A stretch of DNA of 20,849 bases from a virus: positions 1-20,849 of the IMG/VR virus record IMGVR_UViG_3300002180_000069; one strand, 5' to 3'. Within the stretch, counting starts at the first letter, position 1. Each line of letters starts with the position of its first letter. Below the pieces are notes generated by a model. It was given only the letters and a program-made list of their open reading frames with translations. It was not told the DNA's origin and made no database searches. The translations under genes were made by a program, and so were the position numbers. This document shows positions 1 to 15,358 of this stretch, piece after piece.

Positions 1-39
1 CGAGCAGGGTATGGTATCTTGAGGGCGTGGATTAGCCAT
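1..39 (-). CDS. 5' end of a hypothetical gene running off the left edge
   Basis: An ATG at 39 overlaps the TGA stop of the preceding gene (TGATG) and the frame stays open for 13 codons to the window edge, beginning MANPRPQDTIPCS. Stop-start overlaps of this kind are used repeatedly by the leftward genes here, which is the main support. The upstream Shine-Dalgarno is weak (GAAG about 8 nt before the ATG, inside the previous gene). Too little is visible to guess a product. Confidence 0.35.
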   Translation of the reverse strand, partial: MANPRPQDTIPCS

Positions 40-335
40 CAGGCAATCTTCATGCGATACATATAAGGAGCTGGTATGACATTCTTGGGAGTGTCATCTG
101 TCGAGTGTCCAGGCTTACTGATCCAACGGTAAGCTCGCTTACCTTTGTTACCAGGCTTGTTCTGACTAATGAGAATCAGATTACGTACAGCAAACTCATC
201 TTCAGGATGGCGTCTAACGTGAGCTTGGAGTTTACGTAGTCTGTTCTTGGTGCGACGATCTTGAATCCGGTATGCGAGACGTTGAGCTGTACCGCGTGAA
301 CGCTTGCCGGAACCACCTTGTTTTTTACCTGTCAT
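39..335 (-). CDS. small, very basic hypothetical protein
   Basis: This 98-residue protein is rich in Lys and Arg over its first 45 residues, with a segment near residues 27-45 (RRTKNRLRKLQAHVRRHP) that looks like a basic amphipathic helix. That would suit nucleic-acid binding, although no named domain is recognised. Its ATG overlaps the stop of the HNH gene by four bases (ATGA) and has a GGGAG Shine-Dalgarno 6-7 nt upstream, so it is probably translationally coupled. It is the last complete gene of the leftward primase-helicase transcript. No signal peptide or membrane segment is seen. The reading frame looks genuine because of its coupling and ribosome site; function is unknown. Confidence 0.7.
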   Translation of the reverse strand: MTGKKQGGSGKRSRGTAQRLAYRIQDRRTKNRLRKLQAHVRRHPEDEFAVRNLILISQNKPGNKGKRAYRWISKPGHSTDDTPKNVIPAPYMYRMKIA

Positions 336-874
336 GTCGTTCTCCCATGGTTAGGATGAAAGCCGTGTTCTTTCTCAGCTGCTTTACGCGCAGCTATTGC
401 GTCTTCAAGTTTTATAAAAAGCCCTATATGCTTAGTAATATTATTTACTGTAATACGAGCTCGCCATTTCTTACAAGGCTTGGAATAAGCTATTCCACAT
501 ATCCCAGATATATTATGTTTATGTAGTTTTGCATTCCGTTGATTTTCTGAACGGGTTACACTTCGTAAATTTTTCCATCGATTGTCAGTGCGTTGACCAT
601 TTATATGATCTATTATATTAGGCCAATATCCAACTACCCAAAACCAAATAATACGTGGAACTCGGTATGTATGATTATCTATAGAGACTAATTGATAACC
701 ATTACCATTTACACTTCCAACCACTGTATTTACAAATTTGGTGTTCCACGTATTAAAAGCTTGTAAGTTTTTGAAGTCGCTTCTAGGTCGCTTGTTCCAG
801 CGTAAATTACCAGTCTCAGGATTATATGAGAATAGGCGCTTTACATACTCATGAGCTAATTCTGGTTTGGGCAT
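332..874 (-). CDS. HNH homing-type endonuclease with AP2-like C-terminal domain
   Basis: This 180-residue protein has the phage HNH_3-type core: a His-bearing strand near residues 66-80, the motif DHINGQRTDNRWKNLR at about 89-104 (Asp89, His90, Asn98, Asn102) and a following SENQRN segment. Residues 122-165 (SGICGIAYSK, then KWRARI and HIGLF) match the AP2-like DNA-binding tail that often follows such nucleases. The family makes site-specific breaks and spreads by homing; whether this copy is mobile is inference. GGAG lies about 6 nt before the ATG. It starts 9 nt after the primase-helicase stop and overlaps the next gene by 4 nt. Its base composition is more AT-rich than the primase-helicase, which fits insertion into an existing operon. 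Confidence 0.88.
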   Translation of the reverse strand: MPKPELAHEYVKRLFSYNPETGNLRWNKRPRSDFKNLQAFNTWNTKFVNTVVGSVNGNGYQLVSIDNHTYRVPRIIWFWVVGYWPNIIDHINGQRTDNRWKNLRSVTRSENQRNAKLHKHNISGICGIAYSKPCKKWRARITVNNITKHIGLFIKLEDAIAARKAAEKEHGFHPNHGRTT

Positions 875-883
875 GCTGGCTCC

Positions 884-3295
884 TTATTTCACAATGTGCA
901 TCTTGAATGCCTCGGGGCTGGCAGCTATATAGGCGTTCCATGCCGAAACCGCTTCCTTGCTAATCTGCCAATCTGTTTGAATGCCACGCACGGTGCGCTC
1001 ACCTACTCTAATAGGTTCAATGAACTGCCCACATTCTTTACGTAGGAATGAAGTGAACTTGTTCTTCTTTGGAACCGTTGGTTCCAAGTATAAGAAGAGG
1101 TCGTTAATCTGTTCACGAGTCATCTTCATACTGCCGTCAGGCTTGCTGGACATGATCTGAAGGAGCAGTGCTTCATAACGAGCTAAGCGTTCCAGTTCGA
1201 ATGGGTCATTAATGTGGCGTCTTTCAGCTGGGAGCTCAGTGATGAAGAACTCAGCATCACGGTTCTTAAAGGCTGAGGCTATTTCGCCTATGGAAGTATA
1301 GTGCTGCGTGTGCAACGCAGTCTTGGCTTCATTCCAGATAGCTGTGTGAGCCAGTGTCTCGTCAGCTTTGCGCAGCATCAGGTAGTTAGCGAACTGCTGC
1401 AGTTCTCCAGGCAGAGTCTTCTTGATGTCTCCGCCGTTAGGTAATCGTTTCTCCTGCCGCTCTGCGATATTGAAGCGTCGGTCCTGGTCTTCAATGACCA
1501 GTGACATAATGCGGTTGGATGCAATGATGTAGTTGGCATAGTTCACAACCATGTGTGAACGAATCCACTTATCAGCGAATAGTACACGCTGTTCTGTAAT
1601 CTGATGTTTTAACGTAGCAATGGCGTCATCAACATCACGCTTGGTCATGTTGTCTACGTCGGCCTCATCCACCATGGTTAGGAAAGAATGAGGTGTACCA
1701 GATTGAAACTCTTGTGTGAACTGTTTGAGTTGCCGGTTCGATGTATATTCGTGTCCAAAGATAGGAGTAAGGACATAGTTGAACAGAAGCCCTTTACCTG
1801 TACCAGGTATACCCTGAAGGAGCCACGCTGTTTCTGTGCGTTGTCTGGTCTGTACTATATGTGCTAACCAGTTCAGGAAGTGCTCTATGATCTCTTCATC
1901 GTTATTAAAGACGTGGTGGATGAGTGTATTGATATTCTTTGGGATTGCTGGTGCTTTGCGTTGTTTTAATTTTAATGAGATACGCATGAACTCTGTTGGT
2001 TGGTACTTATTAACAAAACAGTTTTCAGGATCAAATAATATATCGTTCTGTGGTTCAAATTCATAGCGCCACTGTGGAATGAAGTCACCAGCCTCAATAT
2101 CATTCTGCACCCAGAAGTCAGCAATGAGTACACGTTTCTGTGTTGCTGCCAGATCCAGGCGTTGTTCAGTATTACTGTAAGTGCCGTAATAATAGGAATC
2201 AGATTTAGCATCAGAGAAGGCCAGGTAATGTAAATCCTGGTCTTCTTTATATACAGGCTCAACTCCTACACGGGCAAGTTCAGCTAGTTTTTCGTTATAG
2301 TATTCAGGCACCAGTGCACTGGCCAGACAAGGCTCTTCATCTTTGAACGAATAAATTACATCCGGGTTATTGATTGGATGCCAGTATGCCCAAGTTTCTC
2401 CGCCGTTAAGATTAAGACGGATGAAGTCGGGGTTCTCAAGGATCCCGGTTACTACAGCCTCAGCTGGATTGGTGACGACTTCTGTGTTAGCCACTAGTTT
2501 AGTGCGGGGTTTATGGTTGGGCAGACCTAATTCTGCACGTAGCTCAGCAATACGTGCTGTGCGTCTGGCTCGAATGGCAATGATGTTTACCTCCGGGCAC
2601 CATTTATGAAAATCAACAGTGAGTTTGTCGCCTTTACGACAAACATATTTAACAGCAGGACCACGGATGTTGCGCTTTACGCCTTTCTTACAGATGGCTG
2701 GTTGGATGTAGATGAGCTTATCGTTCTGGCATGTGGTTACATCCAGGATGTACCTCAGTCCACGTCCTGTAGCAGTTAGTTGTAGCTGATCATTCAACTC
2801 AGGTATGGTGAGGTTCAATTGTATCAACGCATGTTTAACTAGTGAGGGAGAGACAGGTGTAGTAAAGAGTATATAAATATGAGTACGTAAACCTGGTTGA
2901 TCAGTGACACCGGCACTGGCGCTGCGTTGAACGATATAGGCATAGCCGGACAAGCCAAGGCGTGCAAGGAGTACATCAATGTCATCAGTGGACATGTCTC
3001 CATCTATATCAAGAAGGAGCCAGAAGGTAAGAGCATTGGGATCATGTGATCCACGCCGTGATTCATTATTGAGAGGATGAATGACGTTGCCTTTAAGTAG
3101 GCAGAAGTTTCGCTTTTGTTTCAAGACACCAGTTAACAGGTCGTAGATGTCTTTGAGTGAGAGTACATCGTATTGGTGTGATGTGAACTTACTGATGTGG
3201 GGGTATGGTTGTTTTTGTAATATGCCCTCTTCATCATAGAAATATGTTTTCGTGAGGGGAGTACGGGCATTAGCTTCAAGCATAGTAATCTTCAT
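884..3295 (-). CDS. replicative primase-polymerase / SF3 (D5/P4-like) helicase
   Basis: This 803-residue two-part replication protein carries an archaeo-eukaryotic-type primase in its N-terminal third: hydrophobic strand plus DxD in FWLLLDIDGD (Asp96, Asp98) and a later TH motif (His139), arranged as in PrimPol-like enzymes. Residues about 450-620 form a superfamily 3 helicase/ATPase: Walker A GIPGTGKG (495-502), Walker B FLTMVDEAD (Asp543, Glu544), sensor NYIIASN (588-594, Asn594) and the arginine pair DRRF (605-608). Proteins of this design synthesise primers and unwind DNA at the origin in P4-like and many phage systems. A weak AAGGA lies about 9 nt before the ATG, and a sigma70-like promoter lies just upstream. 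The primase assignment is less certain than the helicase. Confidence 0.9.
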   Translation of the reverse strand: MKITMLEANARTPLTKTYFYDEEGILQKQPYPHISKFTSHQYDVLSLKDIYDLLTGVLKQKRNFCLLKGNVIHPLNNESRRGSHDPNALTFWLLLDIDGDMSTDDIDVLLARLGLSGYAYIVQRSASAGVTDQPGLRTHIYILFTTPVSPSLVKHALIQLNLTIPELNDQLQLTATGRGLRYILDVTTCQNDKLIYIQPAICKKGVKRNIRGPAVKYVCRKGDKLTVDFHKWCPEVNIIAIRARRTARIAELRAELGLPNHKPRTKLVANTEVVTNPAEAVVTGILENPDFIRLNLNGGETWAYWHPINNPDVIYSFKDEEPCLASALVPEYYNEKLAELARVGVEPVYKEDQDLHYLAFSDAKSDSYYYGTYSNTEQRLDLAATQKRVLIADFWVQNDIEAGDFIPQWRYEFEPQNDILFDPENCFVNKYQPTEFMRISLKLKQRKAPAIPKNINTLIHHVFNNDEEIIEHFLNWLAHIVQTRQRTETAWLLQGIPGTGKGLLFNYVLTPIFGHEYTSNRQLKQFTQEFQSGTPHSFLTMVDEADVDNMTKRDVDDAIATLKHQITEQRVLFADKWIRSHMVVNYANYIIASNRIMSLVIEDQDRRFNIAERQEKRLPNGGDIKKTLPGELQQFANYLMLRKADETLAHTAIWNEAKTALHTQHYTSIGEIASAFKNRDAEFFITELPAERRHINDPFELERLARYEALLLQIMSSKPDGSMKMTREQINDLFLYLEPTVPKKNKFTSFLRKECGQFIEPIRVGERTVRGIQTDWQISKEAVSAWNAYIAASPEAFKMHIVK

Positions 3296-3324
3296 GTTGT
3301 GTATCCTTAGCAGCGCGGAGGAAG

Positions 3325-3354
3325 AGTATAGCCCGTGGTCGGTAGAAGGGTCAA
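3325..3354 (-). promoter_or_regulatory. sigma70-like promoter for the primase-helicase gene
   Basis: Read on the - strand, TTGACC (3354-3349) is followed after 18 bases by TATACT (3330-3325). This is a good match to -35 and -10 boxes and places the start of transcription near 3318, about 23 nt before the primase-helicase ATG. It implies that host RNA polymerase reads this operon. Two direct repeats lie immediately upstream of the -35 box. Confidence 0.7.
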
Positions 3355-3371
3355 ATTAAGCATTTATTTCC

Positions 3372-6584: not shown

Positions 6585-6754
6585 GTGAGACTGGTAGGGG
6601 GGTGGGGCCCCTTATGTTGGAAGAACACCGAAGTCGAATCCGAAGTGGGGTGGGCCTGTGGAGAGAAGGGTATAGGGTACCCCACTCGCTATCCCCCACT
6701 ATTTTTTATAAAATCACTATATACGTTTTGTAAAATTTATGGCATACTTTTTAC
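6585..6754. other. G-rich divergent intergenic hub between leftward and rightward blocks
   Basis: No gene is supported here. The stretch has G runs and perfect palindromes GGGGCCCC (6604-6611) and GGGTACCC (6675-6682). AGTGGGG (6644-6650) can pair with CCCCACT (6694-6700), followed on the + strand by a run of six T. An AT-rich segment follows (6701-6750). It separates divergent transcription units and lies just before the terminase region, a position where cos or pac sites are often found, but nothing proves one. Confidence 0.4.
6705..6734 (-). promoter_or_regulatory. sigma70-like promoter driving the leftward small genes
   Basis: On the - strand TTTACA (6734-6729) is followed after 18 bases by TATAAA (6710-6705), or after 17 by TTATAA. 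The start of transcription would fall near 6698. The leader would then run through the G-rich hub and element A to the 69-residue gene. The AT-rich context makes a chance match possible. Confidence 0.45.
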
Positions 6755-7474
6755 ATGAGTATTAAAAAATCTTTTAGTGCAATGCACCAACGGTGTAAAA
6801 ATCCTAATAACCCTAATTATTATAGATATGGGGGAGTGGGGATTACTGTTTGTGAACGGTGGGATTCTTTCGAAGCTTTTTGTGAAGATATGGCCCCTCG
6901 TCCTATAGGGATGTCTTTAGATAGGATTGATTCTCTTGGAGATTACACCCCTGAGAATTGTAGATGGGCAACTCCATTAGAACAGATGCAAAATCGCGTG
7001 GATTCTATATATTGTGAACATAGAGGGGAAAGTAAAACTCTTTCTGAATGGTGTAACGAGCTTAAACTTAACTATAGTTTTGTTTATAGGCACCTCAAAG
7101 CGGGAAAGAACATCGAGGAAATCATGACATTAAAATTTAATGATACATACCGTTCTAAATGGGGAGCTATAGAAATTAATGGAGTAACTAGAAAATTAAA
7201 AGAGTGGTGCGTAGAATATAGAAAGCCTTACCCAACTGTCTACGCTCGAATTCGCCGGGGAATTGATCCACTAACAGCACTAACCCAAGATAATGTTCAC
7301 ACAGGGCGTACAAAATATAAAAAATTTGATTCTAAATACGCAGCGATAAAAATCCGTGGGAGAACACAGTCTCTTTCTGATTGGTGTAGAGAGTATGGTA
7401 TTCTCTACCAAACAGCATACTATGCTCTGTTTATAAAAGGGGTCGCCCCTTGGAAAGTCTTTCCGCGTGTTTGA
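6755..7474 (+). CDS. HNH endonuclease with three C-terminal HTH-like repeats
   Basis: This 239-residue protein has an HNH-type core in residues 1-82: AMHQRCKNPNNPNYYRYGG, GITVCERW, MSLDRIDSLGDYTPENCRWAT and the MQNR tail, as in common phage homing-type nucleases. Three related modules follow, at about 90-130, 138-177 and 197-236, each with hydrophobic start, Thr-x-x-Leu, EWC or DWC, then Y-x-x-(V/A)Y and a Gly turn; they are probably helix-turn-helix DNA-recognition repeats. Its AT-rich codons contrast with the terminase genes, indicating separate acquisition. No Shine-Dalgarno precedes the ATG, and family members often have a few more N-terminal residues, so the start may be trimmed or expression weak. 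Nucleases beside terminases sometimes assist packaging, but homing is the simpler reading. Confidence 0.85.
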   Translation: MSIKKSFSAMHQRCKNPNNPNYYRYGGVGITVCERWDSFEAFCEDMAPRPIGMSLDRIDSLGDYTPENCRWATPLEQMQNRVDSIYCEHRGESKTLSEWCNELKLNYSFVYRHLKAGKNIEEIMTLKFNDTYRSKWGAIEINGVTRKLKEWCVEYRKPYPTVYARIRRGIDPLTALTQDNVHTGRTKYKKFDSKYAAIKIRGRTQSLSDWCREYGILYQTAYYALFIKGVAPWKVFPRV

Positions 7475-7541
7475 GTTCTCTTCGCAGCCGAGCTACACTT
7501 CCGGTAAGTACCAATGGAGAACTTTAAGAGGTGTCATATCT

Positions 7542-8051
7542 ATGTCGGAGCCTACCCGCCCGTGTAATTCACACGAACGTCTTTTTTGCGAAGCTATTTC
7601 TATTGGGATGAAACCGTCCCAGGCTGCAAAACACGCTGGTTGGAAAGAGCCTTATCGCAGAGCCGCTTCAAATGCGTTAAGACGTCCCTGTGTAAAGGCG
7701 TACTTGGAAAAACTGCAGAAAAAAGCCAGTAAGCAGGCTGATATCACCCGTGCAGATGTGCTTGAAGGGTTGAAGGAAGCTATCTACGATGCAAAATTAG
7801 GCGCAGACCCCCAGTCACAAATCGCTGGTTGGCGTGAAATTGGTAAGATTATTGGTATCTACGCTCCTGAAGAGAAGAAAATCCTGGTTGAATCGGATAA
7901 GTTGGTCGCCCTTGCTCAGTTGGAGTCTCTACCTGAGTCACGACTGTTGGAGTTGGCCGGTGAAGAGGCCCTTGAAGGTGAATTCTCCTTGATAGATGAG
8001 GATGATGACGAAGCTGAGTCTTTCACTGGGGAAAATCATGCCACGCACTAA
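7542..8051 (+). CDS. terS: terminase small subunit
   Basis: The start is ATG 7542 (MSEPTRPCNSHERL), with AGAGGTG about 9 nt upstream; a longer frame from 7467 lacks a ribosome site. The 169-residue protein fits the Terminase_2-type small subunit: an N-terminal helix-turn-helix (residues about 10-58, FCEAISIGMKPSQAAKHAGW, then NALRRPCVKAYLEKLQ), a central helical oligomerisation segment (ITRADVLEGLKEAIYDAK to REIGKIIGIYAPE, 69-110) and an acidic C-terminal tail. The small subunit recognises the packaging site and hands DNA to TerL. It overlaps terL by 14 nt, and gene order supports the assignment. Confidence 0.85.
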   Translation: MSEPTRPCNSHERLFCEAISIGMKPSQAAKHAGWKEPYRRAASNALRRPCVKAYLEKLQKKASKQADITRADVLEGLKEAIYDAKLGADPQSQIAGWREIGKIIGIYAPEEKKILVESDKLVALAQLESLPESRLLELAGEEALEGEFSLIDEDDDEAESFTGENHATH

Positions 8052-10008
8052 ACACGAACGAAGAACTGGCATGCGTCATTGTGCTGAGTGTAAGAAGGAT
8101 AAGCCGAAGGAGCAGTTTGGCCGCTCTCAATCAATCTGTATTACGTGTCGGGAGAAGCGTGATGCCGCAGCGTTTAAGAAAAAAGCTGAAAAACGCCAGC
8201 TTGCCCGTGAAAAGAAGAAACAGAACTCTATAGAAGCGAAGAGGTTGGCACGGGTCACCCATCACACGCGTAAACACGCCGCGAAAGTCCGAGTAGCGAA
8301 TAAGCAGAAGAAGGAAGAGGCACAACAGGCCAATGTTGTCGCTACTCAAGAGCTGGCCAAGCGTGAATTGGCCCGTAGAAGCCTGGTAAACTTCATAACC
8401 CGGTTCAAATCCGACTATCAGGCCGGTTGGGTGCACAAAATCGTGTGCGCCAAGCTGGAAAAGTTTGCACAGGACGTAATTGATAAAAAATCACCTCGTT
8501 TGATGGTTTTTATGCCCCCTCGAACTGGTAAATCACTCATTGCTTCTCAAGATTTCCCCTCCTGGATCCTTGGACACTACCCACAGCTTGAATTTATCGC
8601 TGCATCCTATGCTGTTTCTCTTCCGTTGAGTTTTTCACGTAAAGTGAAAGACCGGTTAGCCGATCCGATGTATCAGGCCATGTTTGAAGAGACTAAATTG
8701 CACCCGAAAGTGCAGGCGGCAGAGCACTGGATGACTACTGAAGGCGGTGGTTACATCGCAGCGGGTGTCGGTGGTGGTATTACCGGGCGTGGTGCTGATA
8801 TTTTGAATATTGACGACCCGGTGAAGGATGCACAGGAAGCAGACTCTGAAACTGTGCAGGAAGCGGTGTGGGACTGGTACGGCTCGACTGCTCGTACTCG
8901 TTTAGCTCCGGGTGGAGGCGTGTTGTTAATCCAGACCCGGTGGTCTGATCGTGATCTGGCAGGGCGGTTACTCGAACACCAGAAGGAGCAGGAGGAGGAA
9001 TTCCAGGATCGCATCGATGACCTCGATGAGAAGATGAAAGCGACGGAAGATCCAACTAAACTGCTCCAGCTCCAGGAGGAGATCCGGTTTCTAACCGAGA
9101 AGTCGGAGAAAGAGATCGAGAAGTGGGACGTGTTGTCGCTGGCGGCAATAAACACTGAGCATGATGAGTTCTGGCACAAGTCGAAGGGTAAGATTGTGCA
9201 CGAGTATGGCCCACATACCCAGCTCCTCAGACGTAAAAACTGCGCTCTGCATCCGGAGAGATTTGATGAGATAGCACTGGCGCGGATAAAGAGGGTGTTG
9301 CAGCCACGTCACTGGTCAGCGCTGTACCAGCAGAACCCGGTACCGGATGAGGGGCTGTACTTCAGGAAGGAGATGTTCCGGTACGAGCCTAAACTGTCAG
9401 ATCAAGCGTGGAGGCGGTGGAATATTTTCATTGCCTGGGACTTGGCCATCGGTCAGCGGCAGACTAACGACTGGACAGTGGGGCTGATCGGTGCGCATGA
9501 CCCTGAAGATCGACTACACTTGTTGGATATGGTGCGGGTGAAGACCGATATGCTGGCTGAAACTATTGTTGGGGCTGCGGTGCCGTATAAAGCTCAGTTA
9601 CAGAAGTTGGGGCTGGAGCAGGGGCAGATACAGATGGCTGTGATGCCGACGTTGAAGAAAGAGATGCGCAGGGAGCGGATGTACATGTCGTTGGATGATA
9701 CGCTGAAACCGGTGACTGATAAGTTGGCTCGGGCACGCCCTGCACAGGGCTGGTTGCAGCAGGGCAGGATACTGCTGCCGCAGGGTGAGCCGTGGGTAGA
9801 GGTGTTTACGTCGGAGTTGCTGAGGTTCCCTAATGGTACATTTGATGATATCGTTGACTCGCTGGCGTGGCTGGTGCGCATGGTAGCGCACCATGAGCCA
9901 CCGCGTATGAAGAAGAAAAAGAAGAAGAAAGGCTGGAAGGACAAGATGAAAGGACAGCTGGCCACGCGAGGCAGAGTCGGTAGCGGCAACGGGGCGATGA
10001 GTGCGTAA
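8038..10008 (+). CDS. terL: terminase large subunit with zinc-ribbon-like N-terminal extension
   Basis: The start is ATG 8038 (MPRTKHERRT), with GGGGA upstream, giving 656 residues. Residues 15-37 hold CAEC and CITC, a probable zinc ribbon, followed by a basic helical linker to about 110. The packaging ATPase then starts: ARRSLVNFI, Walker A MPPRTGKS (159-166), Walker B ILNIDD (Asp259, Asp260) and a motif near LLIQTRW. Residues about 313-365 form a charged coiled-coil insertion. The C-terminal nuclease has AWDLA (Asp468), NDWT (Asp478) and DDIVDSLAW (Asp604). It cuts and translocates phage DNA into the procapsid. The zinc-ribbon-like extension and coiled-coil insertion are unusual compared with typical 450-550-residue relatives. 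It ends in a Lys-rich tail. Confidence 0.95.
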   Translation: MPRTKHERRTGMRHCAECKKDKPKEQFGRSQSICITCREKRDAAAFKKKAEKRQLAREKKKQNSIEAKRLARVTHHTRKHAAKVRVANKQKKEEAQQANVVATQELAKRELARRSLVNFITRFKSDYQAGWVHKIVCAKLEKFAQDVIDKKSPRLMVFMPPRTGKSLIASQDFPSWILGHYPQLEFIAASYAVSLPLSFSRKVKDRLADPMYQAMFEETKLHPKVQAAEHWMTTEGGGYIAAGVGGGITGRGADILNIDDPVKDAQEADSETVQEAVWDWYGSTARTRLAPGGGVLLIQTRWSDRDLAGRLLEHQKEQEEEFQDRIDDLDEKMKATEDPTKLLQLQEEIRFLTEKSEKEIEKWDVLSLAAINTEHDEFWHKSKGKIVHEYGPHTQLLRRKNCALHPERFDEIALARIKRVLQPRHWSALYQQNPVPDEGLYFRKEMFRYEPKLSDQAWRRWNIFIAWDLAIGQRQTNDWTVGLIGAHDPEDRLHLLDMVRVKTDMLAETIVGAAVPYKAQLQKLGLEQGQIQMAVMPTLKKEMRRERMYMSLDDTLKPVTDKLARARPAQGWLQQGRILLPQGEPWVEVFTSELLRFPNGTFDDIVDSLAWLVRMVAHHEPPRMKKKKKKKGWKDKMKGQLATRGRVGSGNGAMSA

Positions 10009-10024: not shown

Positions 10025-10492
10025 ATGGCGAAAAAACACAAGAAGTCTCGTAAACCGATTTTGTGTTTGGATTTTGATGGAGTGCTCCACTCTTATACCA
10101 GTGGGTGGCAGGGGGCACGGGTGATTAGTGATTTACCGGTAGAGGGGACACAACCATTTTTGATAGAAGCACTAATGCACTTTGATGTACAAATTTACTC
10201 CGCTCGGTCAGCGCAGTGGGGTGGACGTCGGGCCATGAAACGGTGGCTGAAACAAGCACTGTATGGTTATTTCCAGACTATTGAGGGGTTCAAACACTGG
10301 GATTTTAATACGGCAGGATTTGGAACTCATGACGAAGAAGCTCTGCACCAGACTAAGCTTATTTTAGAGCAAATCAAATTCCCTCTTACTAAGCCACCAG
10401 CATCTGTAACTATCGATGATCGAGCGTGGTGTTTTAATGGGGTCTTTCCTAATATAGAAGCGCTCAAAGAATTTGAGCCTTGGAACAAGTAA
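10025..10492 (+). CDS. HAD-superfamily phosphatase-like protein
   Basis: This 155-residue protein has the HAD signature: hydrophobic strand and CLDFDGVLHS (nucleophile Asp16, acid Asp18), motif II VQIYSARS (Ser59), a candidate motif III Lys near 123 and motif IV SVTIDDRA (Asp131, Asp132). There is no large cap domain; the short insert after motif I suggests a substrate open to large molecules such as nucleic-acid ends or nucleotides. The reaction would be magnesium-dependent phosphate transfer; the substrate is unknown. GGGAGA lies about 6 nt before the ATG. It sits between terL and portal genes, so it is made with the packaging proteins. A 5' or 3' end-processing role is a guess from context. 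Confidence 0.8.
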   Translation: MAKKHKKSRKPILCLDFDGVLHSYTSGWQGARVISDLPVEGTQPFLIEALMHFDVQIYSARSAQWGGRRAMKRWLKQALYGYFQTIEGFKHWDFNTAGFGTHDEEALHQTKLILEQIKFPLTKPPASVTIDDRAWCFNGVFPNIEALKEFEPWNK

Positions 10493-10502
10493 GGGTGTAT
10501 GT

Positions 10503-12614
10503 ATGACAATGACCAGCCAGGTTGCTACAGAGCAAGCAGAACACTATGTGTATTGTCGTGATAACGGACACACTAAGTTTTTAGAGAAAGCCAAGAAGTG
10601 TGAGAATTTCTTTGCTGGCATACAGTGGGACGAAGAGGATCTGGCCAAGTTACGACGCACCCGTCGTCCAGCCCTGACTATGAATAAGGTGCTGCCGAGC
10701 ATGGCCAGTATCTTCGGTGAACAGATTGAGAATCGGGCGGAGATTGGATTCCGGCCTTCGAAGAATGGGAACCAGGAGACGGCTGACGCACTGTCAAAGG
10801 TGTGGATACAGATTCAGAACAACACACAGCTGACCTGGAAAGAGTCAGCTGTTTTTGATGATGGGAGTATTACCAGTCGGGGCTTCTTCGATGTACGCCT
10901 GGGATTTAACGATTCTGTGTTTGGAGAGGTGAAGATTGAATCACTGAATCCTAATAATGTGGTCCTGGATCCGGATGCCGAAGAGTATGATCCGGACTAT
11001 TGGAAAGAGCTGTTTATATCCAAATGGTTCAGTCTGGATGACATCGAACTGACTTGGGGGGCTGCTGCCAAGAAGGAGCTGGAACACAAGACCAAGTCGA
11101 ACTATATGTATGGGTATGACTTCATCGATACCAGGCCGGATACTTTCGGTGGTAGTCGGCGCAGGACTGCTGATGATGCCAACGCAGCGCATCGGCGCAG
11201 AATTCGTATTCTGGAGCGTCAGTATAAGAAAGTTGAACAGCGCGAACACTTCGTAGACCTGGTTACTGGCGACACTCGTATTATTCCGAAAGATATGGAT
11301 CGGGAGAAGATCCGCCTCATCATGCAGGCGTTCAACCTCGGCACTATTTCCCGCCCTACCGATGCTTACTGGTGGACTGTAACTGCTGACGACGTAGTAC
11401 TGCATCACGAGCGCAGCCCGTATAAACACTTCACTGTAGTTCCGTATTTCCCGTTTTTTCGCAGAGGCAACACCATCGGCTTGGTTGAGAATATGATCGG
11501 GCCGCAGGAGCTGTACAATAAGAGCTCTAGCCAGGAGCTGCATGTAATCAATACTACTGCCAACAGCGGGTGGAAGATCAAGACCGGTTCGTTGCAGAAT
11601 ATGGATATCGAAGAGGTGGAGGAGCGTGGAGCTGAGACTGGTCTGGTGATGGAGCTGGACGATATCAACAACGCTGATAAGATCACCGCCAATGCCATTC
11701 CGACTGGACTGGAGCGGGTAGCGTTTAAAGCGGCTGAGGATTTGAAAGAGATCTCCATGTCTTCTGATTCCATGCGGGGTTTTGACCGAGCTGACGTGGC
11801 GGCTAAGGCCATTATGGCTAAGCAGGTACGTGGATCAGTGAACTTTGCCAAGCCTCTGGCTAACCTCGGCTTCACTCAGTTTCTTTTAGCACGTAACACT
11901 ACAGACATCGTGCAGGAGTATTATACTGAAGAACGGTTGATGCGTATCACCGGCAGCGACCTCAATGCTGAATCGGAGGAGTTCACCGTTAATCAGATGA
12001 CTCCGGAAGGGCGCATTGCTAACGACCTCACTCTGGGTGAATACGAACTGACTATTACTCAAGTGCCCCCACGCAATACGTTCGAAGAGTCTCAGTTCGA
12101 TGAGGCCATGCGTATGCGCGAGCAGGGCATTCCCATACCTGATGATGTAATTGTTGAGAATTCTCATCTGGCACGTAAAGGTGAAGTTGTTAAGCGCATC
12201 AAGGATAAGATGGGTGATGGCGAGCCGAGTCCGGAGCAGCAGGAGCTGCAGCGGCTGGAGGTCGAACTCAAGCGGCTTGAAGCTGATAAGATCAGAGCTG
12301 AGAACAGCCACAAACAATCAGAGACCGCACTTAACCTGGTACGGGCGCAGGAGACTGCTGAAGGCGAGGGGCGTAGTGGCGGTGGTGACAATGCCAAGTT
12401 GCTGGAAGCGCGTACTGAGCGTGAGCGTGTAGTTGCGGAGATGCGGCTGCAGAAGTATAAGATCGATGGAGAGTTGGATATCAAACGAGAGGAATTGAAC
12501 CTGGCGAGAGAAAAGATGCAGGCAGAACTCTTGTTGAAAAAAGCGACGGAAGCACAGAAGTTGTTGGTGTTGAAGTCACAAGAAAGTAAACCCGCAGAGA
12601 AACGAGGTGAATAA
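10503..12614 (+). CDS. portal protein (P22-like, long form)
   Basis: The start is ATG 10503 (MTMTSQVATEQAEHY), with AAGGG 7 nt upstream; a longer frame begins inside the HAD gene. The 703-residue protein has the P22-type portal layout: an N-terminal helical clip with RRPALTMNKV (about 54-63) and FGEQIENR, a wing and stem region with NPNNVVLDPDAEEYDPDYW, a conserved GPQELYNKSSSQELHVINTT segment, and SSDSMRGFD. From about residue 575 on it is a long charged coiled coil rich in Glu, Lys and Leu, which forms the barrel or internal tail. Portals make the dodecameric ring through which TerL pumps DNA. Gene order terL-portal-scaffold-capsid agrees. Confidence 0.92.
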   Translation: MTMTSQVATEQAEHYVYCRDNGHTKFLEKAKKCENFFAGIQWDEEDLAKLRRTRRPALTMNKVLPSMASIFGEQIENRAEIGFRPSKNGNQETADALSKVWIQIQNNTQLTWKESAVFDDGSITSRGFFDVRLGFNDSVFGEVKIESLNPNNVVLDPDAEEYDPDYWKELFISKWFSLDDIELTWGAAAKKELEHKTKSNYMYGYDFIDTRPDTFGGSRRRTADDANAAHRRRIRILERQYKKVEQREHFVDLVTGDTRIIPKDMDREKIRLIMQAFNLGTISRPTDAYWWTVTADDVVLHHERSPYKHFTVVPYFPFFRRGNTIGLVENMIGPQELYNKSSSQELHVINTTANSGWKIKTGSLQNMDIEEVEERGAETGLVMELDDINNADKITANAIPTGLERVAFKAAEDLKEISMSSDSMRGFDRADVAAKAIMAKQVRGSVNFAKPLANLGFTQFLLARNTTDIVQEYYTEERLMRITGSDLNAESEEFTVNQMTPEGRIANDLTLGEYELTITQVPPRNTFEESQFDEAMRMREQGIPIPDDVIVENSHLARKGEVVKRIKDKMGDGEPSPEQQELQRLEVELKRLEADKIRAENSHKQSETALNLVRAQETAEGEGRSGGGDNAKLLEARTERERVVAEMRLQKYKIDGELDIKREELNLAREKMQAELLLKKATEAQKLLVLKSQESKPAEKRGE

Positions 12615-12616
12615 TT

Positions 12617-13714
12617 ATGGGTAAGCAAGCAGTACAAGACCTGGATTGGAGTGATCCCAAGGCCGTAGCACAGGCGCGGGGTGATAACTTCGGTAAAGAG
12701 ACTGATGATGAGGTCAAGGATCCTGAAGCGGAAGCTGCGGCTAAGGCCGAAGCTGAAAAGACCGCAGCTGAAAAGGCTGAAGCTGATAAGATCAAAGCTG
12801 ATGCTGAGGCGAAAGTAGCTGAAGATGAAAAGGCTGACGCTGATGCCAAAGCTGCCAAGGGCGAGGATGATAAAAGTGGAGATGATAAGAGTGGAGATGA
12901 CGATAAGGGGCACATGGTTCCGAAGTCTCGCCTTGATTCCAAGGCTAAACGGGTACGTGAGCTGGAGGATCAGAACAACGCTCTACAGGACAAGCTGACT
13001 GATTACCAGCTCGCTGGGCAACCGGTGGAGAAGAAAGAGGAGCCTGAAGCTGATCCGCGTGAGGCCATCGATGAAGAGCTGGAGGAGCTGGAAGGGAAAC
13101 TTCTGGATGCCCTGGCTGATAACAACCGCGAAGCTGCGGTAATAATCCGGCGTGAGATTCGTGGTAAGGAGATGGCACTGATGCACCTGGATATAGCCGC
13201 CAGCAGCAAGCAGACAGCTACCGACGTAACGCAGAACTTGGAGCTGGAAGCAGCGTATGACGTGATCGAAAAGCGTTACCCCGCTCTGGATACTGAGTCG
13301 GATGATTATGATCAGAAACTGACTGATCAGGTGCAGCAGGTACGCGAGGCGTTCCTGGCTACCAATAAGTATTCTCCCGCCAATGCGTTGCTGGAAGCGG
13401 TGAAGATTGTACAGCCGGAGCCTGCAGCTAAAGCTGATGAGAGTGAAGCTAAGGCTGGTGAAGAGGAAGAAGAGGAGGGGGCTAAACTTACTGAAGAGCA
13501 GCAGGCGGAAGTCGAAAAACGTAAACAGAAAGCGGTGGAGAAAGCTGTGGATGCAGCCAACAAACAACCGCATGATATGTCAGGTGTTGGTGATGATGGC
13601 GACAAAGCTGGTAAGAGTGGACAGGATCCACTGCCATCAAAGATGACCATAACCGATTTTCGGGCTCTGCCGGAAGAAACGAAGAAACGGCTGCGTGGTG
13701 ATTACAACGTGTAA
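12617..13714 (+). CDS. probable capsid scaffolding protein
   Basis: This acidic 365-residue protein starts 2 nt after the portal stop, with GAGGTG upstream. Residues 30-100 are an Ala/Glu/Lys/Asp low-complexity helix with two KSGDD repeats. About 105-133 is coiled coil (SKAKRVRELEDQNNALQDKL). About 145-265 is a more ordered helical core containing EELEELEGKLLDALADNN and YDVIEKRYPALD. An acidic run EEEEEE lies at 282-287. The C-terminus ends with a basic KKRLRGDYNV segment, of the type that contacts capsid subunits in known scaffolds. Position between portal and capsid, size and composition all match scaffolding proteins, which shape the procapsid and then leave. No protease motif is seen. Confidence 0.8.
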   Translation: MGKQAVQDLDWSDPKAVAQARGDNFGKETDDEVKDPEAEAAAKAEAEKTAAEKAEADKIKADAEAKVAEDEKADADAKAAKGEDDKSGDDKSGDDDKGHMVPKSRLDSKAKRVRELEDQNNALQDKLTDYQLAGQPVEKKEEPEADPREAIDEELEELEGKLLDALADNNREAAVIIRREIRGKEMALMHLDIAASSKQTATDVTQNLELEAAYDVIEKRYPALDTESDDYDQKLTDQVQQVREAFLATNKYSPANALLEAVKIVQPEPAAKADESEAKAGEEEEEEGAKLTEEQQAEVEKRKQKAVEKAVDAANKQPHDMSGVGDDGDKAGKSGQDPLPSKMTITDFRALPEETKKRLRGDYNV

Positions 13715-13725
13715 AAACCAAGACG

Positions 13726-13741
13726 GAGGGCTGCGGCCCTC
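13726..13741 (+). other. short stem-loop between scaffold and Tad2-like genes
   Basis: GAGGGC, loop TGCG, GCCCTC forms a perfect 6-bp hairpin 12 nt after the scaffold stop. There is no U-tract after it, so it is more likely an RNA-stability or attenuating structure than a full terminator. Confidence 0.4.
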
Positions 13742-13765
13742 TACTACTTATAGAGGTAAATAATA

Positions 13766-14035
13766 ATGAAGATGGATTTTAGTCAAGCGTTGGAAATGCT
13801 TAAGGATGGTGGAAAAGTAACACGGTCTGGTTGGAACGGAAAAGAGATGTTTGTTTTCCTGGTGCCTGGGTCTACTTTCAATGTAAATCGTGCGCCTTTG
13901 CTGGGTATTTATTTGGAAGGCACTGAGATTAGCTACCAACCGCATATTGATATGCGAACAGCTGATGGCACAATTGTACCTTGGTTAGCGTCTCAATCTG
14001 ATTTACTTGCTAATGATTGGGAGCTTGTTGCGTAA
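13766..14035 (+). CDS. DUF2829 / Tad2-like anti-Thoeris protein
   Basis: This 89-residue protein shows the DUF2829 pattern throughout: MDFSQALEMLKDGGKVTRSGWNGK at residues 3-26, MFVFLVPGS at 28-36, PLLGIYLEGTEISYQPHIDM at about 44-63, TADGTIVPWLASQSDLLANDW at 65-85. Tad2, the best-known member, is a phage oligomer that sequesters the cyclic ADP-ribose-type signal made by Thoeris TIR proteins and so blocks that defence. Whether this copy binds such a signal is inference. GAGG lies about 8 nt before the ATG. It sits alone between the scaffold gene and the capsid leader, unlike the usual unbroken scaffold-capsid order, so it looks like an inserted cargo gene. No transmembrane segment or zinc motif is seen. 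Confidence 0.88.
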   Translation: MKMDFSQALEMLKDGGKVTRSGWNGKEMFVFLVPGSTFNVNRAPLLGIYLEGTEISYQPHIDMRTADGTIVPWLASQSDLLANDWELVA

Positions 14036-14239
14036 GATAAAACTTTGACATATACTCAGAGCGTAGGGGTTCAGCCCCTACGCTCCTTCGAAAGTTACGT
14101 GCGATACAGTAACGGAGAATCGGAACCTCCTTGGGCTCTAGTCCATAAAAGGGTCGTGACTCGCAATCTGCAGCGATAGAGCAGAGTTCAATTACTTTTG
14201 GATTAACGCCAGTTACGTCTATACAAGGAGGCGCATACC
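14036..14239 (+). promoter_or_regulatory. structured ~200-nt leader of the major capsid gene
   Basis: No ORF fits this stretch. GAGCGTAGGGG, loop TTCAG, CCCCTACGCTC (14059-14085) is a perfect 11-bp hairpin and can be extended by AACTTT (14041-14046) pairing with AAAGTT (14091-14096). Further hairpins are GTTAC/GTAAC (about 14095-14113), GGAG/CTCC (about 14115-14130) and TCTGC/GCAGA (about 14167-14186). It ends in a strong AAGGAGG 9 nt before the capsid ATG. None of the hairpins has a U-tract. It may stabilise the capsid mRNA or set its translation level. Confidence 0.55.
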
Positions 14240-15358
14240 ATGGCAGCAACAAATTTTAGTCGGATGACCGACGAGGAAAAAACCATCTGGTCGATGGATT
14301 TCTGGGAACAAGCTCGGAATAACTCTTTCCTCAACAAGTTCACAGGCAGCAGTGCAGATGCTCTAGTTCAGCGTATTAGTGAGCTGAAAAAGACTGAGAA
14401 AGGCGCACGTGCTGTTATCACTCTCGTAGCAGATCTGGTTGGCGACGGTATCGCCGGTGACCGTACTCTGGAAGGTAACGAAGAGCAGATGGCAAGCTAC
14501 GATCAGGTTATTCAGATCGATCAGCTGCGTCACGCTAACCGCAACGAAGGTAAGATGGCTGAGCAACGCTCTGTTGTCACTTTCCGTGAGCAGTCCCGTG
14601 ACAAGCTGGCATACTGGATGGCTGACCGTTCTGATCAGATGGCATTTCTCACCATGTCCGGTGTTGACTATGCCTACCATACCAATGGTGCGTCTCGCGT
14701 AGGTTCTGACCTGCCATTCCTGGAATATGCAGCTGATGTTTCTGCTCCAACTGCTAACCGCCATCGCCGGTGGGATGCTACCCTCGGATTGCAGGCTGGT
14801 GATACTGCTGCTGTAGAAGGTGGCGATACTCCAAGTTGGGGTATGCTCGTTGAGCTGAAAGCCTATGCCAAGGACAACTTCCTCCGTCCGATCCGTACTA
14901 AGGATGGCATCGCTTTCTACCACGTATTCATGACCCCGTTGGGTATGGCGAAGCTGAAGCAGGATTCAGATTACCTGGCCAACGTCCGTAATGCAGGCGT
15001 TCGCGGTCCTGGTAACGAACTGTTTAAGGGCACCGATACTGTGTTCGTAGATGGTTTGGCTATCTCTGAATACCGCCATGTATACAACACCAAGGGTCTG
15101 ATCTCTGGCACTGATAAATGGGGTTCCAGTCAAGACGTGGATGGTCAGCGTGTACTGTTCTGCGGTGCCCAGGCTCTGGGTTACGCCGACATCGGTGATG
15201 CTGATTGGGAAGAGAAGGGTTTTGACTACGATAACCAGCAGGGCATCAGTATTGGTAAGATCTTTGGCTTTCTGAAGCCAGTGTTCCACACCAATGTAAC
15301 TGACAGTGACGAGGATTTTGGCGTCATCTGTTGTGATACTGCTATTGAAGATGCGTAA
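14240..15358 (+). CDS. major capsid protein, N4-gp56 (DUF4043) family
   Basis: This 372-residue protein matches the N4-gp56 capsid family in its N-terminal half: FWEQARNNSFLNKFTG at residues 21-36, KKTEKGARAVITLVADLVGDG at about 50-71, RTLEGNEEQMASYDQV, IDQLRHANRNEGKMAEQRSV and FREQSRDKLAYWMADR. It forms the HK97-fold icosahedral shell. The length is typical. The ATG has AAGGAGG 9 nt upstream and the codon use is rich in common C-ending codons, as expected for the most abundant virion protein. It follows a structured leader and is followed by a stem-loop and a small decoration-type gene, both usual for capsid operons. Confidence 0.95.
   Translation: MAATNFSRMTDEEKTIWSMDFWEQARNNSFLNKFTGSSADALVQRISELKKTEKGARAVITLVADLVGDGIAGDRTLEGNEEQMASYDQVIQIDQLRHANRNEGKMAEQRSVVTFREQSRDKLAYWMADRSDQMAFLTMSGVDYAYHTNGASRVGSDLPFLEYAADVSAPTANRHRRWDATLGLQAGDTAAVEGGDTPSWGMLVELKAYAKDNFLRPIRTKDGIAFYHVFMTPLGMAKLKQDSDYLANVRNAGVRGPGNELFKGTDTVFVDGLAISEYRHVYNTKGLISGTDKWGSSQDVDGQRVLFCGAQALGYADIGDADWEEKGFDYDNQQGISIGKIFGFLKPVFHTNVTDSDEDFGVICCDTAIEDA

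Follow-up and report, generated by a model that had tools for sequence, protein, structure and literature searches.

Candidate anti-Thoeris genes of two unrelated families, one of which (Tad2) appears to have been gained repeatedly, gather before the capsid gene in the phage group described here, and no paper reporting such a gathering was found in the literature searched, which left out most subscription journals. The example considered is a Tad2-like gene in a viral stretch of 20,849 nucleotides (IMG/VR record IMGVR_UViG_3300002180_000069, hereafter “the window”), located between a scaffold-like gene and the major capsid protein gene. Its product is probably a sponge for an ADP-ribose (ADPR)-type signal, which would be expressed late, beside the gene of the putative trigger of the defense, in a slot repeatedly filled with anti-Thoeris cargo. 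This arrangement bears on two questions, namely how Gram-negative Thoeris is triggered, and what determines the location of sponge genes in phage genomes.

The open reading frame (ORF), on the + strand, starts with ATG and encodes 89 aa. Pfam profile PF11195 (Tad2-like, formerly DUF2829) matches the protein with 97.7 bits (cut-off 25) over profile positions 1-73 of 73, so that the fit to DUF2829 along its whole length, claimed in a preliminary description made from the letters alone, is confirmed; in a profile scan, PF11195 was found in one place only of the whole record, and likewise of this phage's 70-kb contig. The relatives of known structure are ModTad2 (3e-20), HgmTad2/AcrIIA7 (5e-17) and SPO1 Tad2 (7e-16), and also SptTad2. 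An AlphaFold (AF2) model of the monomer, built from 35 window and IMG/VR sequences, reached a mean pLDDT of 95.5, and the 24 PDB chains that Foldseek retrieved with it at E<=0.001 were without exception Tad2/AcrIIA7 structures, the top match being ModTad2 with hisADPR (9eib; E 7.5e-10, TM 0.81). All the family-invariant residues (F5, R20, W23, N24, G25, M28, P72, W73, L74, S76, Q77, D79, D84, and W85), as read from two alignments (A3 and A4) whose rows are 45-79% identical to the window protein, are kept; with respect to the ligand pocket of 8smf/9eib, this comparison reflects general family conservation. Membership of the Tad2 family is thus firm by sequence and by fold, bearing out the identity first proposed, and from the family we infer the function. 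The G+C content of the gene was also considered as a sign of transfer (42.6% vs. about 51% in its neighbors) and discarded, as 20% of equal late-gene windows are as low.

The phage is a KPP25-like podophage, with a capsid protein 58% identical to that of Kochitakasuvirus, and in the part compared the window shows no difference from IMG/VR contig 3300027852_000002. Positions 1-3362 (~3.4 kb) extend past the point where this phage's 70-kb IMG/VR contig ends, and therefore reflect another assembly or a different circular break. The flanking genes are those first described (Table 1), the scaffold-like gene, which has no Pfam or PHROG match, being recognized from its position, its acidity and its C-terminal motif. 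Between the terminase and portal genes, positions 10025-10492 encode a HAD-like protein (DFDGVLHSY motif), probably another cargo gene; two other ORFs, 332-874 (- strand) and 6755-7474 (+ strand, directly 5' of the small terminase gene), resemble by eye HNH/homing-endonuclease-type proteins. In the nearest relative, L002 (capsid 82% and portal 64% identical), the gap between scaffold and capsid genes is 183 nt and contains no tad2. Among the 149 scaffold-capsid junctions that could be resolved, 88 measure <320 nt and count as short, and the other 61 are enlarged and house many unrelated small ORFs. Since it is missing at the junction in L002 and in most other relatives, tad2 is accessory cargo in the slot between the scaffold and capsid genes, which is how the comparison with related phages suggested in the preliminary description turned out.

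Table 1. Features of the window around tad2 (positions refer to the window unless a locus is named) and locations of two further families associated with the slot.
Feature	Position	Strand	Basis
Terminase large subunit gene	7996..10008	+	PF03237, phrog_38
Portal gene, P22 type	10473..12614	+	PF16510 1.8e-83
Scaffold-like gene, acidic, C-terminus ..RLRGDYNV common to relatives	12617..13714	+	position, homologues in relatives
G+C-rich hairpin 3' of scaffold gene	13726..13741	+	fold; terminator scan scores minus strand only
Ribosome-binding site AGAGG, 9 nt 5' of tad2-like ATG	13752..13756	+	sequence
tad2-like gene, putative sponge for ADP-ribose-type immune signal	13766..14035	+	PF11195 E 5.8e-28, solved relatives, AF2 model
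Hairpin GCGTAGGGG-TTCAG-CCCCTACGC between tad2 and capsid leader	14061..14083	+	fold
Capsid-leader hairpin 1, GTTACGTGCGATACAGTAAC, CGAYA loop	14094..14113	+	fold, motif counts
Capsid-leader hairpin 2, TCTGCAGCGATAGAGCAGA, CGAYA loop	14167..14185	+	fold, motif counts
Major capsid protein gene	14240..15358	+	PF13252 Phage_capsid_3 5e-37, phrog_334 3e-81
PF13876 fused to or adjoining Tad2-like/RyR	L183 4500-4805; L295 5132-5761; L307 2054-2317; L312 351-890; L111 7725-8267		
Basic 90-100-aa slot family	L249, L258, L271, L274, L287, L289, L290, L293, L339		

When 265 capsid loci, whose capsids fall into 176 clusters at 95%, were searched with a Tad2 profile, nine of the 176 clusters had Tad2 in the 5 kb upstream of the capsid gene and none had it downstream (p 0.004), the DNA scanned being similar on both sides (716 kb upstream and 667 kb downstream). 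Leaving out the two clusters arrived at by way of Tad2 itself (window and L053), the result is seven upstream vs. none downstream. The Tad2-like gene follows the scaffold gene and precedes the capsid gene in the window, L053, L150, L168/L169, L183/L185, L315, and L319 (the last two being prophages of Motiliproteus and of P. fluorescens C2, respectively); it is placed between the terminase and portal genes in L307, L309, and L312, the last of these being a separate cluster with Tad2 just over 5 kb away. A scan of whole records for positional enrichment returned just six PF11195 genes in 47 partly hand-chosen records, too few for the purpose.

The head-module Tad2 proteins belong to several subtypes, with that of L307 nearest to ModTad2 (57%) and that of L312 nearest to SPO1 Tad2 (51%), and pairwise identities of 77% (L309-L319), about 75-76% (window-L053) and 69% (window-L315). 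A single clade for ten of them was rejected (p-AU 0.002, minimum of 6 changes), in a test with 86 columns and a very long L169 branch. Between the window and L053, the capsid proteins are 56% identical and the portal and terminase 39-41%, vs. about 75% for Tad2. Taken together, the diversity of subtypes, the rejected single origin and the greater closeness of Tad2 than of the head genes point to repeated gain of Tad2 before the capsid gene in this group rather than to one inherited gene.

In other relatives the same slot is filled by RyR-domain genes (PF02026), detected with Pfam in L171, L172, L298, and L295 and with a local HMM in L302. Short RyR-like proteins drawn in by the local RyR model (L131, L326, L328, L329, and L342) were excluded from the count, those inspected being devoid of the H..W motif. 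The RyR proteins of the slot keep an H..W pair, an HP motif and then D; judged by motif, these may be the counterparts of H75, W78, H100, and D117, the ligand residues of the phage enzyme RyDEP. RyDEP and its homologues either cleave 2'cADPR and 3'cADPR or sequester them, and they rescue phage growth against Thoeris (PMC13232231, preprint, May 2026). RyDEP-type RyR proteins, like Tad2, act on the same class of signal; nonetheless, RyDEP (PF02026) is unrelated to the Tad2 family, and RyR proteins can be glycosidases, whereas Tad2 is a sponge. No cluster contains Tad2 and RyR together, though less than one would be expected at these numbers.

By single-linkage clustering of the cargo between terminase and capsid genes, the largest group is the one joined by Tad2, RyR and PF13876 (Phage_gp49_66), with 26 lineages, followed by one with 9. 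A fusion of PF13876 with RyR is present in L295 (Pfam), and fusions with a Tad2 domain are present in L111 and L312 (sequence, local model). Of 99 Tad2 loci, 9 have PF13876 no more than 1.5 kb from Tad2, and none has it farther away. It may act in the same counter-defense as Tad2 and RyR. A basic family of about 90-100 aa (..RAGVSGYNKPKRTP..KSHVVVAK..) also fills the slot in nine members, with no Pfam match in the one member searched. As to the hosts, no clear difference in ThsB (PF08937) was seen between those of prophages with and without Tad2/RyR, a point against the proposed explanation; P. fluorescens C2, the host of L319, has two ThsB. A separate observation concerns L133 (MW202615.1), where the capsid gene is seemingly split over positions 6646-8882 into the N-terminal 55 codons, an HNH-like ORF annotated as PacI endonuclease and the remainder, possibly an intron with a homing endonuclease.

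The place inside the head module had been considered odd for a counter-defense gene, an impression that did not survive comparison, as in this group Tad2-like genes are repeatedly met ahead of the capsid gene, and in several unrelated phages they adjoin capsid, portal or terminase genes. Tad2 is situated directly 3' of the major head gene in Drulisvirus PWKp7 and myPSH1235, two genes 5' of the capsid gene in Vibrio phage 1.127.O, next to the terminase in Lactobacillus phage Lb, among virion genes in Momine, and with the capsid gene as neighbor in L111. In Klebsiella phage myPSH1235 (L363), the Tad2-like ORF (2501-2740) is absent from the RefSeq annotation. On the other hand, RcXuper, Sundance, Tlacuache, VLCpiS13c, VLCpiS11a, and others carry Tad2 near replication, rII, ligase or early genes, and approximately half of the Tad2-like genes of annotated phages are among replication or early genes. 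The nearest large genes in IMG/VR loci include portal (7), ribonucleotide reductase (6), and terminase (6); large neighbors were classed in 66 other loci, as a picture rather than a clean test. Broadly, a head-module place is common for the Tad2 family and not odd, though far from the rule.

A reason for such a place may lie in what Thoeris senses. The trigger of staphylococcal Thoeris is the major capsid protein as such rather than the assembled capsid, and a streptococcal Thoeris senses the capsid protein too (PMC12578639); capsid sensing is known for Gram-positive Thoeris and other capsid types only, not for P22-like capsids or Gram-negative Thoeris. In the mechanism that we propose, the window Tad2, a tetramer by family precedent, would bind and hold an ADP-ribose-derived signal made by the TIR proteins of a Thoeris-like system, and with the signal held the effector would stay off. 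The gene, which has the same direction as the head genes, is probably expressed at a late stage, shortly ahead of the capsid protein or at the same time; the capsid protein would be the trigger, and the position of tad2 may have been selected for that reason. Because a sponge acts by amount, it would be enough to produce it along with the head genes, before the trigger or at the same time, and an early place would be unnecessary. A bolder version, which we put forward tentatively and regard as somewhat doubtful, is that the pre-capsid junction might be a dedicated anti-Thoeris slot, in which the trigger gene is paired with interchangeable Tad2 sponges or RyR degraders, with PF13876 as a further member. 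If unrelated anti-Thoeris families do gather beside the capsid gene, P22-like capsid proteins would be predicted to trigger Thoeris too, and the slot would be a way to find new anti-Thoeris genes among its other occupants.

Which signal would be held has to be judged from the characterized Tad2 proteins, which are tetramers with two pockets holding the Thoeris signal (PMC12043709; PMC13299392). SPO1 Tad2 binds 1''-2'/1''-3' gcADPR of type I Thoeris (PMC12043709; PMC13299392; PDB titles) and ModTad2 binds His-ADPR of type II Thoeris (PMC13299392; PDB title). ModTad2 (Myroides odoratus prophage; 8v3e, 9eib) shares Pfam family, length and fold with the window protein, and is its best match by sequence and fold; however, identity is about 43% and the stretch after strand beta2 differs (VNRAPLLGIYLEGT in the window protein), and therefore its ligand is not to be assumed here. 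SPO1 Tad2 (gp34.65; 8sme, 8smf) has the family and fold in common and about 45% identity, the tree being unresolved at these forks; its GFGFGEY stretch is shared by L312, not by the window protein. A sponge for some other signal, such as a CBASS cyclic dinucleotide, or an anti-CRISPR role of the AcrIIA7 type, is in our opinion unlikely. HgmTad2, deposited as AcrIIA7, is certainly a clear relative; it and SptTad2 (8kbi-8kbm, 8wjd) present a C-terminal motif near-identical to that of the window protein (ADGTIV..WLASQ.D.LANDW), and both bind cGG, reportedly via a site in a long beta2-beta5 insertion (PMC12043709). That insertion is not present in the window protein, the extra stretch of 8kbi being unmatched in the alignment, and its 89 aa are close to SPO1 Tad2 (90) and ModTad2 (88) rather than to HgmTad2 (104). 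Furthermore, SPO1 Tad2 does not bind 3'3'-cGAMP (PMC11722364).

Accepting an ADPR-signal sponge, its place could still be meaningless, the scaffold-capsid junction being permissive for any small gene and Tad2 and RyR being common accessory genes that land there by chance. We give this explanation a serious hearing, at rather less than an even chance: it is favored by the unrelated small ORFs of the 61 enlarged junctions (out of 149) and by the many phages with Tad2-like genes beside replication and nucleotide-metabolism genes, but it agrees poorly with the linked Tad2/RyR/gp49_66 set being by far the most recurrent cargo of the terL-capsid region, and with the lack of any Tad2 or RyR match in a similar length of downstream DNA. 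Far less probable is a role in the virion or in assembly, in which the protein would be packaged with the capsid or help it and merely share the Tad2 fold; the position inside the head block would suit such a role, but the gene is missing in most relatives with intact head modules, the same family is found far from head genes in many phages, and every family-invariant residue is kept. Nothing points to packaging of the window Tad2 into the virion, a possibility raised in the preliminary description.

Regarding expression signals, the hairpin 3' of the scaffold gene would be a weak terminator at best on the + strand, because of its poor U-run, and a sigma-70 scan around tad2 gave no more matches than in shuffles. 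In L053, the sequence presents a terminator-like hairpin 3' of the scaffold gene, and tad2 and the capsid gene are separated by a near-consensus sigma-70 promoter (TTGACT, TATAAT), so that tad2 would there be read with the preceding genes or from a promoter not found here. Both CGAYA-loop hairpins of the window are intact downstream of tad2, a junction for which Rfam, at the gathering threshold and at E<=5, returned no credible family. Such hairpins are found in 91 of the 172 capsid-gene leaders, taken as the 250 nt 5' of the gene, at a density of 2.59 per kb vs. 0.081 elsewhere on the same strand (about 32x), and they are strand-specific (2 on the opposite strand vs. 111). Permuted pentamers gave fewer hairpins, the best permutations being overlapping frames of the CGAYA motif. 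The loop is constant and the stems vary freely between phages, and the hairpin may represent a new cis-acting RNA element of the capsid mRNA, e.g., a phage-protein operator or an mRNA stabilizer.
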